22,862 bases of DNA from IMG/VR virus record IMGVR_UViG_3300044701_000323, positions 1 through 22,862 of that record; one strand, written 5' to 3'. Origin of the DNA: a virus. The notes beneath the pieces are model-generated. The model did no database searches, was not told the DNA's origin, and saw only the letters and a list, made by a program, of their open reading frames with translations. Numbering within the stretch: position 1 is the stretch's first letter; each line of letters opens with the position of its first letter. The position numbers and the translations under genes were made by a program. This document shows positions 78 through 5,314 of the stretch, one piece after another.

Positions 78-914
78 ATGTCGATAAGCGCCAAAGTCAC
101 AGACGTAGCACCACTCCTAACGAGACTCGCACTCAGCTCTCACTACCTTGTGAGAATGAATGGATTCCCTGGTGAGTTATCAACTTTTCTAAACGGAAGA
201 GGTGTATCATCCGCGTTTATCAACAACGATGCTGGATTACTTTGCTATGAGGCAACTCTTCCTGGATCATCTTTAGCCACTGCTGATGTGTATGGTGATT
301 TCATGGGAGTTACTCAAAAGTATGCTCACAGTAGAATGTATGACCAACTCACACTTGGGTTCTATTGTGATTTAAACTATAGTATGCTAAAATTGTTTGA
401 GCATTGGATTGAGTTTATTGCATCTGGATCTAATCAGTCAAAGTCTACACCTGGTTATTTTGTCAGAATGAGATACCCAGACACTTATAAGTGTAAGTCT
501 GGATTCTCTATCACTAAGTTTGAGAAAGATAAAAAGATTAAACCTCTAGAGTATAATTTCTTTAATGTCTTTCCTGTTTCTTTAAGTTCAACCCCTGTTT
601 CCTATGATGGGTCTCAGGTACTTAGAGTGAACGTTACTCTGTCTTATGATACTTACCAGTGCGGTAAGACTTCTAGTGCTGCTATTGCACGGAACACCGA
701 TTCTAATAAAGAACCAACAACTACTCAGGCTGCTCCAGTCACACCTCCAGTAGCACCTACTCCATTTAATACTGATAAACTTTCAAGAAATCTTTCCAAT
801 GAATACTATAATAATGGTATCATTAGAAATACTCCTGGAAACACCATTCAATTTAGACAGGGCCCTGGTGACAGGAAACAGGATGCAACCAATTTTGGTC
901 GCGACATTGGGTAA
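78..914 (+). CDS. Baseplate tail-tube initiator/cap protein (T4 gp54/gp48/gp19 tube fold)
   Basis: This 278-aa protein looks like a member of the tail-tube family. The stretch with LPGSSLATADVYGDFMG (about residues 61-77), followed by a beta strand, a helix ending in WIEFIAS, and then the C-terminal YDGSQVLRVNVTLSYD, matches the order seen in T4 gp19 and gp54, where a WDSNNEIETFEVTLALDYW-like segment closes the barrel. About 70 residues after it are rich in Pro, Thr, Asn and Gln and are probably flexible. In T4, gp48 and gp54 cap the hub and start tube polymerisation; here the gene directly precedes gene 26, in keeping with the hub cluster. I cannot decide between gp48 and gp54. The stop codon overlaps a late-promoter-like octamer. 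The Shine-Dalgarno sequence is weak (TTAGAGAT). Confidence 0.75.
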   Translation: MSISAKVTDVAPLLTRLALSSHYLVRMNGFPGELSTFLNGRGVSSAFINNDAGLLCYEATLPGSSLATADVYGDFMGVTQKYAHSRMYDQLTLGFYCDLNYSMLKLFEHWIEFIASGSNQSKSTPGYFVRMRYPDTYKCKSGFSITKFEKDKKIKPLEYNFFNVFPVSLSSTPVSYDGSQVLRVNVTLSYDTYQCGKTSSAAIARNTDSNKEPTTTQAAPVTPPVAPTPFNTDKLSRNLSNEYYNNGIIRNTPGNTIQFRQGPGDRKQDATNFGRDIG

Positions 915-947: not shown

Positions 948-1658
948 ATGCCATTACCAGTAATTTCGACTCCAACTTACGAATTGACCATTCCTTCAAC
1001 GGGAAAGAAAATTGAGTTTAGACCTTTCCTAGTAAAGGAAGAAAAGATCCTAATTCTCGCCATGGAGAGTGAGGATAGTAAACAGATCGCTAAGGCTGTA
1101 AAACAAGTTCTGTCAAATTGCATTGTCACCAAGGGTGTTGATGTTGCTGACTTTGCTACATTTGACATTGAACTGTTGTTCCTTAACATTCGCGGTAAAT
1201 CCGTTGGTGAAAAGATTCCCATCGTTGTGACTTGTGAAGATGATGGTGAAACTGAGGTTGAAGTTGAAGTTGATGTAGATGACATCAAAGTAACCAAAGA
1301 TCCTAAGCACAAAGATGTTATTGATATCGGTAACGGTTACTTTGTGAAGATGAATTATCCTAAGTTTGAAGAGTTTATTGAGAACAATTTTGTTGGTGGT
1401 GGAAGCGACGAGTCTTTTAGATTAATTGCGAAGTGTGTAGACACCATTTATAATGATGAAGAATCCTGGGATTCGGCTGATTTCAGTGAAAAAGAAATGA
1501 TCGAGTTCTTGGAACAGTTTCCAACATCTCAGTTCAAAAATATTGAGGCATTCTTCGAGACCATGCCTAAACTTTCTCATGAGATTAATGTGACTAATCC
1601 TAAGACTAAGAAGAAGAACAAGATTGTTCTGGAGGGTCTGGCAAGTTTTTTCAGCTAG
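948..1658 (+). CDS. 26: Baseplate hub assembly protein gp26
   Basis: This 236-aa protein fits the T4 base plate gp26 family: an N-terminal segment PSTGKKIEFRPFLVKEEKILI (residues 16-36) is the typical short beta start with the FRPF motif, followed by a helical body. A very acidic stretch, ETEVEVEVDVDDIK, sits near residues 102-115. In T4, gp26 is needed for hub assembly and is thought to act as a chaperone rather than as a major structural part. The start is supported by AGGA at 940-943, four bases before the ATG. The last codons, TTT TTC AGC TAG, contain a T TTT TTC slippery heptamer, and the -1 frame continues in a gp51-like sequence, so two products are expected: the 236-aa protein and a 298-aa fusion. 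Confidence 0.85.
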   Translation: MPLPVISTPTYELTIPSTGKKIEFRPFLVKEEKILILAMESEDSKQIAKAVKQVLSNCIVTKGVDVADFATFDIELLFLNIRGKSVGEKIPIVVTCEDDGETEVEVEVDVDDIKVTKDPKHKDVIDIGNGYFVKMNYPKFEEFIENNFVGGGSDESFRLIAKCVDTIYNDEESWDSADFSEKEMIEFLEQFPTSQFKNIEAFFETMPKLSHEINVTNPKTKKKNKIVLEGLASFFS

Positions 1659-1684
1659 CACTCTCGCATGAAACTGTCGAGAGT
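1646..1684 (+). promoter_or_regulatory. Programmed -1 ribosomal frameshift signal
   Basis: The gene 26 reading frame contains the heptamer T TTT TTC at 1646-1652, which has the X XXY YYZ form that lets both tRNAs re-pair one base back. After a 7-base spacer (1653-1659), a perfect 7-bp hairpin follows: ACTCTCG (1660-1666) pairs with CGAGAGT (1678-1684) around an 11-base loop. The zero-frame stop TAG (1656-1658) lies just after the heptamer. Slippery site, spacer length and stem are all in the range of known -1 frameshift sites. The downstream -1 frame is open for 63 codons. Not tested experimentally here. Confidence 0.8.
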
Positions 1685-1843
1685 TACTACAAGACAAATT
1701 TTGCCTTGGTTCAGCACCATAAATATAGCTTGACAGAGTTGGAAAACATGATCCCTTGGGAACGTGAAATATACGTTACTCTCCTGTCACAATATCTTGA
1801 AGAAGAGAGACTAAAGGATCAACAGCAGAATGGCATCAGGTAA
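1652..1843 (+). CDS. 51: gp51-like hub assembly domain, made as -1 frameshift extension of gp26
   Basis: The -1 frame relative to gene 26 is open from 1610 (after two TAA codons at 1601 and 1607) to the TAA at 1841-1843. It encodes a protein-like stretch with ALSHETVESYYKTNFALVQ and later MIPWEREIYVTLLSQYLEEE. The PWEREIY...YLEEE pattern is typical of tail assembly chaperone C-termini and of small cyanophage proteins annotated as baseplate hub assembly catalyst gp51. There is no start codon or ribosome site before the conserved part; the only ATG (1748) would remove half of it. The reading is therefore a 63-residue extension of gp26 produced by frameshifting. Its end overlaps the start of the next gene at 1830. 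In T4, genes 26 and 51 are neighbours but separate. Confidence 0.75.
   Translation, partial: QLALSHETVESYYKTNFALVQHHKYSLTELENMIPWEREIYVTLLSQYLEEERLKDQQQNGIR
1718..1725 (+). promoter_or_regulatory. Late-promoter-like octamer inside the gp51 frame
   Basis: CATAAATA matches the NATAAATA late-promoter core and lies about 105 bases before the ATG at 1830. It could give a separate late transcript starting with the tape-measure-like gene, but being inside coding sequence it may also be chance. Confidence 0.3.
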
Positions 1844-3554
1844 GACTGACAATTTAATGAGTGCCATTCTGGCCCATGGCAAAGATCCCATGACGGGGGA
1901 GTATCTTTCGCCGCAACAAAGAAAGGAACTTTTTAAGAAAGCAAAGATCTCTGGTTCCAAGGTATTTGGAACTGGAGGTGGGGGAGGTAGTTTTAAGGGT
2001 GGCGGTGGCGGAGCAGGCCGTACTGGTGGTCTTACTGGTGGAGCACTTGCTATAAGATCTCCTGGTGTCATTGCTACTAATGACGTTAGTCAAAAGTTAG
2101 AGAATATTCTTGTACTGCTGAAAGCAGATGCAGATACGGAGCAGAAATATAGAGAATCTTTATTTGAAAAACAGAGATTAGCAAGAGAAAGATTACTCAG
2201 AGGTGGAGCAGAAGATAGATTAGAAGGTAAGGATAAGGAAAGAACCCAAAAGGTCGAGAAAGCTAAGAAAGGAATGGAACTCCAGATTCCTTTCTTAGAG
2301 AAACTCGCCAAGTTCTTGATGATTTATCTGGCGGGTTGGACAACCGATAAACTCATCAATATGTTCTCTGCTAAGGCAGAGGGAAATGTTGTACAATTTC
2401 TTAAGTACAGGGATGTACTTATTAATTCTCTTGGTAAGTTCTTTACTCCTGTCGCAAACATTGCGAATGGATTTGTAATTTGGATTGCAAAGACTACAAA
2501 GAGAATTGCAGGATTTGCTGCCCAGGTAGGAAAAAAAGTATTCACACCATTCTTTAGAAAGATTAGAGATCTTGCAGTTGGAATGTTGAACAAGCTTAAG
2601 TCTTTAGTTCAGAATCCACTCAAGACTGTAACTGATGCTGCAAAAAATGCTGTTTCTAAAGTTACTGCAAAAGGAGCAGAAATATTAAGTAGAGTTCCTG
2701 GCGCGGAGAAAATTAAACAACTTTCTAAATCTTCATCTAAAGCAGTTCAAGGATTAACTGGTAGAGCAGGACAATTTATCAAGGGAGTTGGAGATAAATT
2801 AAATCCTAAACAGTTACTTCAGAAGGCTTTTGATCCAATCAAAGGTCTTCTTGGAAAAACAGGTGGTGCACTTGGTAATGGACTTAAGAACTTAGTTAAA
2901 GGTAATCTTTTAGGAATGATTCTTGGTGCGGGATTTGATGTAAGAGATCGTTTAACTCAAGGGCAATCTCCAACTCAGGCTTTCTTGGCAGGTATAATTA
3001 AAGGTGCTGCTGCTGGTGGAACAGCTGGAATTATTACAACAGCCTTAACATCAGCGATTCCTGGACTTGGTTTACCAATAGGACTATTGTTGGGTGGTTA
3101 CTTAGGTGACAAAGCGGGATCATTATTGGCAAGTCCAATTGATAAGTGGTTTTCTGAAAAGAAAAGAGAACCAAACGAATTTGATAAATGGTTCACTAAT
3201 TGGGCGAACAAAAGTGATGATACAACCAAAGCCCTTCTAGGTTGGGATACTAGAACAGCTAATGCTGGAACGGAACCCGCTAAAGACATTCCAGCGATGT
3301 CTGGTGCTGGTACAGGAGACATGACAAGAGTATCTCCTGGCGGTGCAATGCAAAATGCATCGGCATTGACACCTATTAGAACTGGTAGAGGCCGTAGTGC
3401 TCCTGCAGTCATTCCAGTTTCTGATAGTGGTTCTAGCGTACCACAATCTGTACCAAATCAACAACTGGTAACAGACATTCCTAATGTTGAACCAACTAAT
3501 TATGATAATCCGTACCTATCATTCTCTTACTCCGTCTATAACGTATTAGTCTGA
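1830..3554 (+). CDS. Tape-measure-like tail protein (gp29 position)
   Basis: This 574-aa protein has the architecture of a tail tape measure. After a glycine-rich linker (about residues 45-72) come a long charged helical region (residues 84-154) and the hydrophobic motif FLMIYLAGWTTDKL (162-175). A Lys/Ala-rich helical middle follows, then a Gly/Ala-rich hydrophobic segment (about 361-437) that could insert into a membrane, and a low-complexity Ser/Pro tail. The length is close to T4 gp29 (590 aa), and at about 1.5 angstrom per residue it would span some 86 nm, which fits a contractile tail. It directly follows the gp26-gp51 chaperone pair, the usual place for a tape measure. Its N-terminal module is repeated in the next gene, with which it shares a TGATG stop/start. 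Homology to gp29 is inferred from position and build, not seen at sequence level. Confidence 0.6.
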   Translation: MASGKTDNLMSAILAHGKDPMTGEYLSPQQRKELFKKAKISGSKVFGTGGGGGSFKGGGGGAGRTGGLTGGALAIRSPGVIATNDVSQKLENILVLLKADADTEQKYRESLFEKQRLARERLLRGGAEDRLEGKDKERTQKVEKAKKGMELQIPFLEKLAKFLMIYLAGWTTDKLINMFSAKAEGNVVQFLKYRDVLINSLGKFFTPVANIANGFVIWIAKTTKRIAGFAAQVGKKVFTPFFRKIRDLAVGMLNKLKSLVQNPLKTVTDAAKNAVSKVTAKGAEILSRVPGAEKIKQLSKSSSKAVQGLTGRAGQFIKGVGDKLNPKQLLQKAFDPIKGLLGKTGGALGNGLKNLVKGNLLGMILGAGFDVRDRLTQGQSPTQAFLAGIIKGAAAGGTAGIITTALTSAIPGLGLPIGLLLGGYLGDKAGSLLASPIDKWFSEKKREPNEFDKWFTNWANKSDDTTKALLGWDTRTANAGTEPAKDIPAMSGAGTGDMTRVSPGGAMQNASALTPIRTGRGRSAPAVIPVSDSGSSVPQSVPNQQLVTDIPNVEPTNYDNPYLSFSYSVYNVLV

Positions 3555-5314
3555 TGGCAGCCATTGTTCCTTATCGTCCTGTAACTAGATCTGCTGGTGG
3601 AGCGTTAACCAAGCAGCAGGATGGTAGTGCCAGATTAAAAAAAACTGTCATCAATATTGAGAAAGTTCTTCAAAAGAAGCGCAAAACTACAAAGAAGTTA
3701 AACGAACAGGAAGTAGCAACTACTAGATTTGCAACAGAGCAGAAAACTAGAACTGCTGCTGAAAGTGCAATGGAAAGTGGATCAACTTTCAGTATGCCAA
3801 TGCTGAAGAAGGTTCCGTCTTTTGCTGTAGATGCATTCTCAAGAATTATGAATTTCTTGGGAATATATCTGATTGGATGGGTTACAGATAAGTTACCAAA
3901 GATCATCAATGCCATCAAAGACTTGAATCAAAGGATTCAAAAGATGGGTCAAATTGTGACCAATATGGCTAACAAGCAGTTGCAGATTGTTACATCAATG
4001 GCAAACTTGATTGCCGCAAAGACAAAGCAAATTGCAACTCTAGATTTTGGCGATAAGAGCGGAGATGTAAAAAGGGCAACTGATCAACTAGATGCAGCAT
4101 ATGATTCTATGCAGCAAGATTATGATATGGCGGCAAAGATCTTTAGTGCTCCGTTGGGATCATTTCCAGTTGGTGATGATCCTGGTACTGGAGGCCCTCC
4201 TTTACCAGGAAATAATTCATTCAGTAAAGAGATTACTGAAGATGAGAGAAAAGCACTTGCCGTATTGGCAAAGTATGAATCTGGTGCTGCTGGTTATAAT
4301 GCTGTAAACCAGATTGGTGTTGCAGGTGGTAGAGGAGTAGTAGGATTTTCTGGTGATATTAGAAGAATGAGACAGCATGGTGGTAGATCCTTGGAGGATA
4401 TGACCATCGGTGAAATCAAAGCCTTGCAGCGAGAAGAAAGAATCACGAATTCTCAATGGATTGCAAAGGGTAAATTACACGCTGTAGGAAGATATCAGTT
4501 TGTTGGTAATACTCTTCCTGGAGTCGCTGCCCGTGCTGGTTTTAGTGATGATACTAAATTCACTAAAGCGGTTCAAGATAAAATGGCAATTCAACTCATC
4601 AAGGAAAGAGGAATCTCTCCTTGGGTTGGCCCTAGCGATAAGGCAAGTGCCGCAGAGAGAGCACTGGTCAGAAAAGTTCAGATGGGTGCTGGTGATGGTA
4701 ACGCTAGAAGAAGTGGCAGTCAAACTCCTGCATATTCACAGGCTGTAAAGGTAGGACGATTTTTGCAAAGTCAAGGATATTATGCATGGCAACATCCAGA
4801 CTTTGCTATTACTCCATACAGTACAACTGGAAAGAGTGGTTATACGGGAACTGGTAGAGAGCGTGTGATGCGTAGAAGTTATAACTCTTACCATAATTAT
4901 GGAGAAGCACTAGATTTTCCATTGTCTCATAATAGCGAAGCAAAAATCAATAAACTTGCAAAATATCTGAAGGACAATAGAAGTTCTCTTGGTATCGCTG
5001 AATTGAAATGGAAAGACGATGCCAATCACTTTGATCACTTGCATGTTTCATTTAAAGGTGGTGGTACTGGATCTTCTCCAGTAATCAGTTCCCCAGATAG
5101 TCCACAGGGAGATCTTTCTCCTTTGCCTGAAGCTCCTCCAGACTTTGATATGGCAAAGTTTGTGAGACTGCTCAAGAAGGGAATGGCGAGACAACAAGCG
5201 CAGCAGAAACAGACTCAAGCACAGACTACGAATACTACCCCTTCTACAGGTGGAATGATGAACCCTGGTGCTCCATTAAATAGTATGTTATTCAATTCAC
5301 TTGCATATCAATGA
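3554..5314 (+). CDS. Tail-associated peptidoglycan hydrolase with lysozyme-like and M15-like domains
   Basis: This 586-aa protein has three parts. Residues 1-150 resemble the start of the preceding protein: charged helices, then FLGIYLIGWVTDKL (101-114). Residues about 230-375 form a lysozyme/transglycosylase-like domain with KYESGAAGYNAVN (Glu242 is the likely catalytic acid) and the motif GRYQFVGNTL (312-321). Residues about 400-500 form a zinc peptidase of the LAS/M15 type: SYHNYGEALDF (445-455) gives His447 and Asp454, and HFDHLHVSF (492-500) gives His495 and His497, matching SxHxxGxAxD plus HxH. A Gln-rich tail ends the protein. Together the domains could cut both glycan and peptide during DNA injection, a job done in T4 by the lysozyme domain inside gp5. 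The gene overlaps its neighbours on both sides (TGATG and ATGA), so the proteins are probably made in fixed ratio. Confidence 0.85.
   Translation: MAAIVPYRPVTRSAGGALTKQQDGSARLKKTVINIEKVLQKKRKTTKKLNEQEVATTRFATEQKTRTAAESAMESGSTFSMPMLKKVPSFAVDAFSRIMNFLGIYLIGWVTDKLPKIINAIKDLNQRIQKMGQIVTNMANKQLQIVTSMANLIAAKTKQIATLDFGDKSGDVKRATDQLDAAYDSMQQDYDMAAKIFSAPLGSFPVGDDPGTGGPPLPGNNSFSKEITEDERKALAVLAKYESGAAGYNAVNQIGVAGGRGVVGFSGDIRRMRQHGGRSLEDMTIGEIKALQREERITNSQWIAKGKLHAVGRYQFVGNTLPGVAARAGFSDDTKFTKAVQDKMAIQLIKERGISPWVGPSDKASAAERALVRKVQMGAGDGNARRSGSQTPAYSQAVKVGRFLQSQGYYAWQHPDFAITPYSTTGKSGYTGTGRERVMRRSYNSYHNYGEALDFPLSHNSEAKINKLAKYLKDNRSSLGIAELKWKDDANHFDHLHVSFKGGGTGSSPVISSPDSPQGDLSPLPEAPPDFDMAKFVRLLKKGMARQQAQQKQTQAQTTNTTPSTGGMMNPGAPLNSMLFNSLAYQ

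Follow-up and report, generated by a model that had tools for sequence, protein, structure and literature searches.

Gene 26 and gp51 of virus record IMGVR_UViG_3300044701_000323, from an uncultured marine T4-like cyanophage, very probably form a pair of short and long tail assembly chaperones, the long one being predicted to arise by a −1 frameshift near the end of gene 26. This identification had been proposed in an earlier note on the 22.9-kb window (the whole stretch of DNA that was analysed), and it is supported by the conservation of the slip site, the homology of the extension to T4 gp51, the paralogy of the two T4 proteins, and the fold of gp26.

Layout of the gene 26–gp51 junction

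The features of the junction are listed in Table 1. In profile searches, gp26 matched PF12322 (2.3e-73) and phrog_150 (2.8e-79). NCBIfam matches of gp26 to LacB were far below the cut-off and were ignored. The codons at the 3' end of gene 26 are AGT TTT TTC AGC tag, and in the gene 26 frame the heptamer is divided as T TTT TTC, as a −1 tandem slip requires. The two arms of the stem, ACTCTCG (1660–1666) and CGAGAGT (1678–1684), enclose an 11-nt loop. The slippery heptamer, the 7-base spacer, and the perfect 7-bp hairpin that had been described at the end of gene 26 were all confirmed at these positions. The −1 frame is open from position 1610 across the slip site and contains 63 sense codons (1652–1840) before the stop codon TAA (1841–1843), which overlaps the next gene, beginning with ATG at 1830. 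The predicted gp26-gp51 fusion (TAC-NC) consists of 298 amino acids.

Table 1. Features of the gene 26–gp51 junction and its neighbours in the window
Feature	Position	Strand	Basis
Upstream tail-tube-like gene	78..914	+	PF23849 7e-19, phrog_45 2e-39
Gene 26, candidate short tail assembly chaperone (TAC-N), 236 aa	948..1658	+	PF12322, phrog_150, fold match
Slippery heptamer T TTT TTC	1646..1652	+	In-frame reading, conservation in relatives
7-nt spacer, including the gene 26 stop (1656–1658)	1653..1659	+	
Hairpin, 7-bp stem 1660–1666/1678–1684	1660..1684	+	6-bp core kept in close clade
gp51-like C-terminal extension, −1 frame, 63 codons and stop	1652..1843	+	phrog_634 7e-29
Downstream gene, 574 aa, weak tape-measure-like matches	1830..3554	+	phrog profiles

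The junction has a clear tail tube gene on its upstream side, and the matches of the 574-aa ORF on its downstream side are to phrog_4200 (9.3e-5), phrog_1272 (0.0079), and phrog_1047 (tail associated lysin, 4.3e-5). The junction had been said to lie directly before a tape-measure-like gene; the adjacency holds, whereas the tape-measure match is weak. Two consecutive ORFs of approximately 580 residues are located 3' of gp51 (1830–3554 and 3554–5314). The former has the weak tape-measure matches and the latter contains an endolysin-like region, and either might be the tape measure protein.

Conservation of the slip site

The motif alone carries no weight, because the window contains 6 copies of TTTTTTC where 6.2 are expected, and motif counting as the sole evidence was therefore rejected. 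Relatives were gathered with gp26 peptide patterns that exclude the slip site, and isolate genomes were added. An in-frame T TTT TTC/T/A no more than 8 codons from the gp26 stop was present in 138 of the 139 distinct junctions (T TTT TTC in 114, T TTT TTT in 17, and T TTT TTA in 7). An in-frame slippery heptamer of the X XXY YYZ type, close to the 3' end of the short ORF, is conserved in the relatives. The single junction lacking it belongs to Vibrio phage D504. When gp26 was clustered at 60% identity, the heptamer was kept in 46 of 47 groups. As a control, ordinary Phe-Phe pairs in the same loci were encoded as T TTT TTY in 13 of 295 cases (4%). The rest of gp26 contained 14 in-frame T TTT TTN across 23,441 codons, corresponding to 0.007 expected per 12 codons. 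The variants of the heptamer retain the run of T though the encoded amino acid changes (TTTTTTA specifies Leu).

Downstream hairpin

The hairpin of the window folds moderately better than shuffled sequences, with z of −3.2 for the 27-nt stem and −2.0 for the 48-nt region. Among the relatives, 50-nt segments 3' of the heptamer gave a mean z of −1.83 against dinucleotide shuffles, and 44% of them were below −2. The mean z values of neighbouring segments (two with their start 120 or 60 nt upstream, and two 57 or 80 nt downstream) were −0.07 to −0.41. A 6-bp core of the stem is invariant in the six distinct sequences of the window's own clade. In other clades the stems occupy other registers: that of the P-SSM5 group is 10–11 bp long, and that of the P-HM1 group is GCCCTC/GAGGGC. 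A substantial minority of lineages lacks a clear stem. By pair counts, the P-SSM5 clade has no more than two double changes, and the P-HM1 clade, which is the largest, shows no stem covariation.

The slip could be real and yet be driven by the heptamer alone, with the hairpin being a chance feature of the coding sequence. This explanation, which concerns only the role of the hairpin, agrees with the variable stem position between clades, the many stemless lineages, and the lack of covariation in the largest clade. However, the excess folding is found directly 3' of the heptamer and not in the neighbouring segments, the core is invariant in the window's clade, and other clades possess alternative strong stems; we regard a chance hairpin as possible but rather unlikely. 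That the hairpin is a lineage-specific stimulator, not conserved family-wide, is moderately supported. The comparison of the junction across relatives that the earlier note suggested bears out the heptamer (138/139) and the −1 gp51 frame (103/103) but not the stem, which varies by lineage.

The gp51 extension and its start

The −1 extension matches phrog_634, whose annotation is "baseplate hub assembly catalyst", i.e., gp51. Both the extension and the end of T4 gp51 also match positions 235–278 of phrog_150, indicating that phrog_150 includes members with both parts. Both gp26 and the extension are homologous to the T4 gp26/gp51 family (PF12322, phrog_150, and phrog_634). A Pfam match of gp51 to SWT1_3rd (0.005) was far below the cut-off and was ignored. 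An extension of 56–68 codons in the −1 frame was found in all of the 103 representatives, and all of them match the gp51 profile made from them. The −1 frame of the window contains no ATG, GTG, or TTG before TTG 1706, which is located within the conserved domain. The description of this frame as open for 63 codons, gp51-like, and startless was confirmed.

An alternative explanation is that gp51 is a separate small protein, translated either by termination–reinitiation or by initiation at a start codon of its own beyond the gp26 stop, and that the Phe-Phe sequence is incidental. Most cyanophage records annotate gp51 as its own CDS, 40 of the 103 representatives have an ATG among codons 1–12 of the −1 frame, and Vibrio phages D504 and K476 have a TAATG overlap with no heptamer. 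Against this, 48 of the 103 have no ATG, GTG, or TTG at the front of the frame from which gp51 could start separately, and the first such codon of the window lies inside the domain. In addition, no start codon comes close to the heptamer in conservation, and the domain is covalently fused to a gp26-like domain in T4 gp51. We consider independent translation of gp51 improbable. The remaining explanation is that gp51 is no longer translated and that the −1 overlap is either what is left of a formerly fused gene now in decay or an error of sequencing, of which frame changes in homopolymer runs are a common kind. It has next to no likelihood, being refuted by the recurrence of this frame relation and of the T run in independent contigs as well as isolate genomes and by the conservation of the extension as a protein across all the contigs and isolates compared.

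In Synechococcus phage ACG-2014d, gp51 is unannotated, and a gap of 187 nt (locus 2715–2901) separates gp26 from the next CDS. The −1 frame is open and conserved in this gap.

T4 and phages with a separate long gp51

Genes 26 and 51 of T4 are on opposite strands, and thus their joining by frameshifting is impossible there. Residues 1–201 of T4 gp51 match PF12322 (3.9e-52) and are followed by the same C-terminal extension, and T4 gp26 and gp51 are recognizable paralogues (blastp, 2e-6). Judging from these matches, T4 gp51 consists of another complete gp26-like chaperone with the extension added, which makes it a full-length gp26 paralogue. The statement that the two genes are separate in T4 is correct, but T4 gp51 comprises more than the extension. 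No T TTT TTN was present at the gp26 end in any of the six phages first examined that have a separate full-length gp51 (T4, an Acinetobacter phage, Krischvirus, Aeromonas 31, Proteus P4-3, and RB43), nor in the further T4-type contigs. The end of T4 gp26 retains Phe-Phe, encoded by TTC TTT. The presence of the slip site where gp51 needs it and its absence where gp51 is separate provide a natural control.

Predicted fold of gp26

An AlphaFold2 model of gp26 was obtained from 44 family members (pLDDT 89). The top three PDB chains in VIA-align were 3fgx (Z 8.0), the HK97 tail assembly chaperone 2ob9 (Z 7.8), and YqbN 3klu (Z 7.3). These matches cover gp26 residues 1–96, and the next one has a Z of 5.2. 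The match to HK97 gp13 (2ob9) spans residues 1–86, and Foldseek gave an E of 0.45 and a probability of 0.77 for the model against 2ob9. Searching PDB sequences with the gp26 profile yielded chance-level matches only. The model suggests a borderline resemblance of the N-terminal domain of gp26 to the HK97 tail assembly chaperone; as a Z near 8 is borderline, the fold is taken as support and not as proof. Pell et al. (2013) are said to have compared 3fgx, 2ob9, and 3klu as one chaperone family.

Possible other routes to the long chaperone

The gp26- and gp51-like frames of Vibrio phages D504 (locus 3200–3230) and K476 (around 3720) overlap in the −1 register without T TTT TTN. Their TAATG stop-start overlap suggests a chaperone split in two by reinitiation. 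Scanning viral contigs revealed no relatives of D504 gp26. The gp26 ends of Rhizobium phage P10VF and Sinorhizobium phage phiM9 carry T TTT TTG together with a TGATG stop-start overlap, and this variant of the heptamer is absent from the main survey of 139 junctions.

Tentatively, the T4-like phages may have secured the long chaperone in at least three ways. The first would be the T TTT TTN slip with lineage-varying stems, in cyanophages, vibriophage nt-1, and several Aeromonas and Rhizobium phages; the second, a duplication that yields a separate full-length gp51 and is accompanied by disappearance of the slip site, in T4, Krischvirus, and RB43; and the third, the TAATG overlap giving a split chaperone in some Vibrio phages. 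The slip and duplication routes are probably covered by Vladimirov et al. 2022. The split chaperone of the Vibrio phages, if true, would be new.

Proposed mechanism

What the sequence shows is the signal and its conservation, the gp51 reading frame at −1, the paralogy, and the likeness in fold; that slippage happens in vivo, how efficient it is, and what the fusion does are inferred. In the proposed scheme, the product of gene 26 would be the short tail assembly chaperone, and a minority of ribosomes would slip by −1 with tRNA-Phe on TTT TTC, re-pairing with TTT TTT, and the slip may be aided in the window's lineage by the hairpin 7 nt downstream. By reading past the stop at 1656, the slipped ribosomes would extend the product by the 63-residue gp51 domain and so make the long form. 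By analogy with lambda G/GT, the short and long forms would coat the tape measure protein, and the gp51 domain would recruit tail tube subunits. T4 would obtain these two forms from two separate paralogous genes, 26 for the short one and 51 for the long one.

Comparison with known systems and implications

The layout resembles that of lambda G/GT in having a short ORF, a predicted −1 slip near its end, and a second frame without a start, and in being located 3' of the tail tube gene. In lambda the pair precedes the tape measure gene (the order is V, G, T, H), and here it precedes an ORF with weak tape-measure matches. The likeness to lambda that had been pointed out is supported by the slip site, the startless −1 frame, and the upstream tail tube gene, the downstream match being weak. 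The slip site differs, being T TTT TTC here and GGGAAAG in lambda, and the likeness of gp26 is limited to its fold resemblance to HK97 gp13.

Vladimirov, Gautam and Davidson (2022, Virology 566:9–15) reportedly identified the tail assembly chaperones of T4-like phages as gp26 and gp51, which fits the T4 homology found here. In the passages that cite their work, PMC12846349 does so for poly-T slippery sites in TAC-N genes of T4-like phages, and PMC10885494 for some T4-like phages carrying a short gene and a fused long gene. The earlier note had asked whether the arrangement was described for cyanomyoviruses; for T4-like phages it has been, by Vladimirov et al. 2022 as cited in these passages. 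The interpretation as a predicted −1 programmed frameshift is well supported, its essentials are already published, and the present junction is a fresh instance of the same kind in an uncultured cyanophage contig. Phage Adele and the Vandenendeviridae/Andersonviridae (PMC12846349) likewise have a poly-T slip site at the TAC-N end and a −1 frame that is open in all the genomes examined there, but they belong to other phage families and their invariant motif is GTTTTT.

Sullivan et al. 2010 (PMC3037559) noted, giving no explanation, that gp51 of cyanophages and of marine vibriophage lacks the first ~200 residues, so that the cyanophage protein reaches a mere 20% or so of the T4 gp51 length. The short cyanophage gp51 is explained if gp26 itself serves as the N-terminal part that it lacks, the predicted frameshift joining the two. 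Hundreds of cyanophage records in which gp51 is separate or missing could be corrected in this way. For T4, the essential "baseplate hub assembly catalyst" gp51 would become a long tail assembly chaperone.
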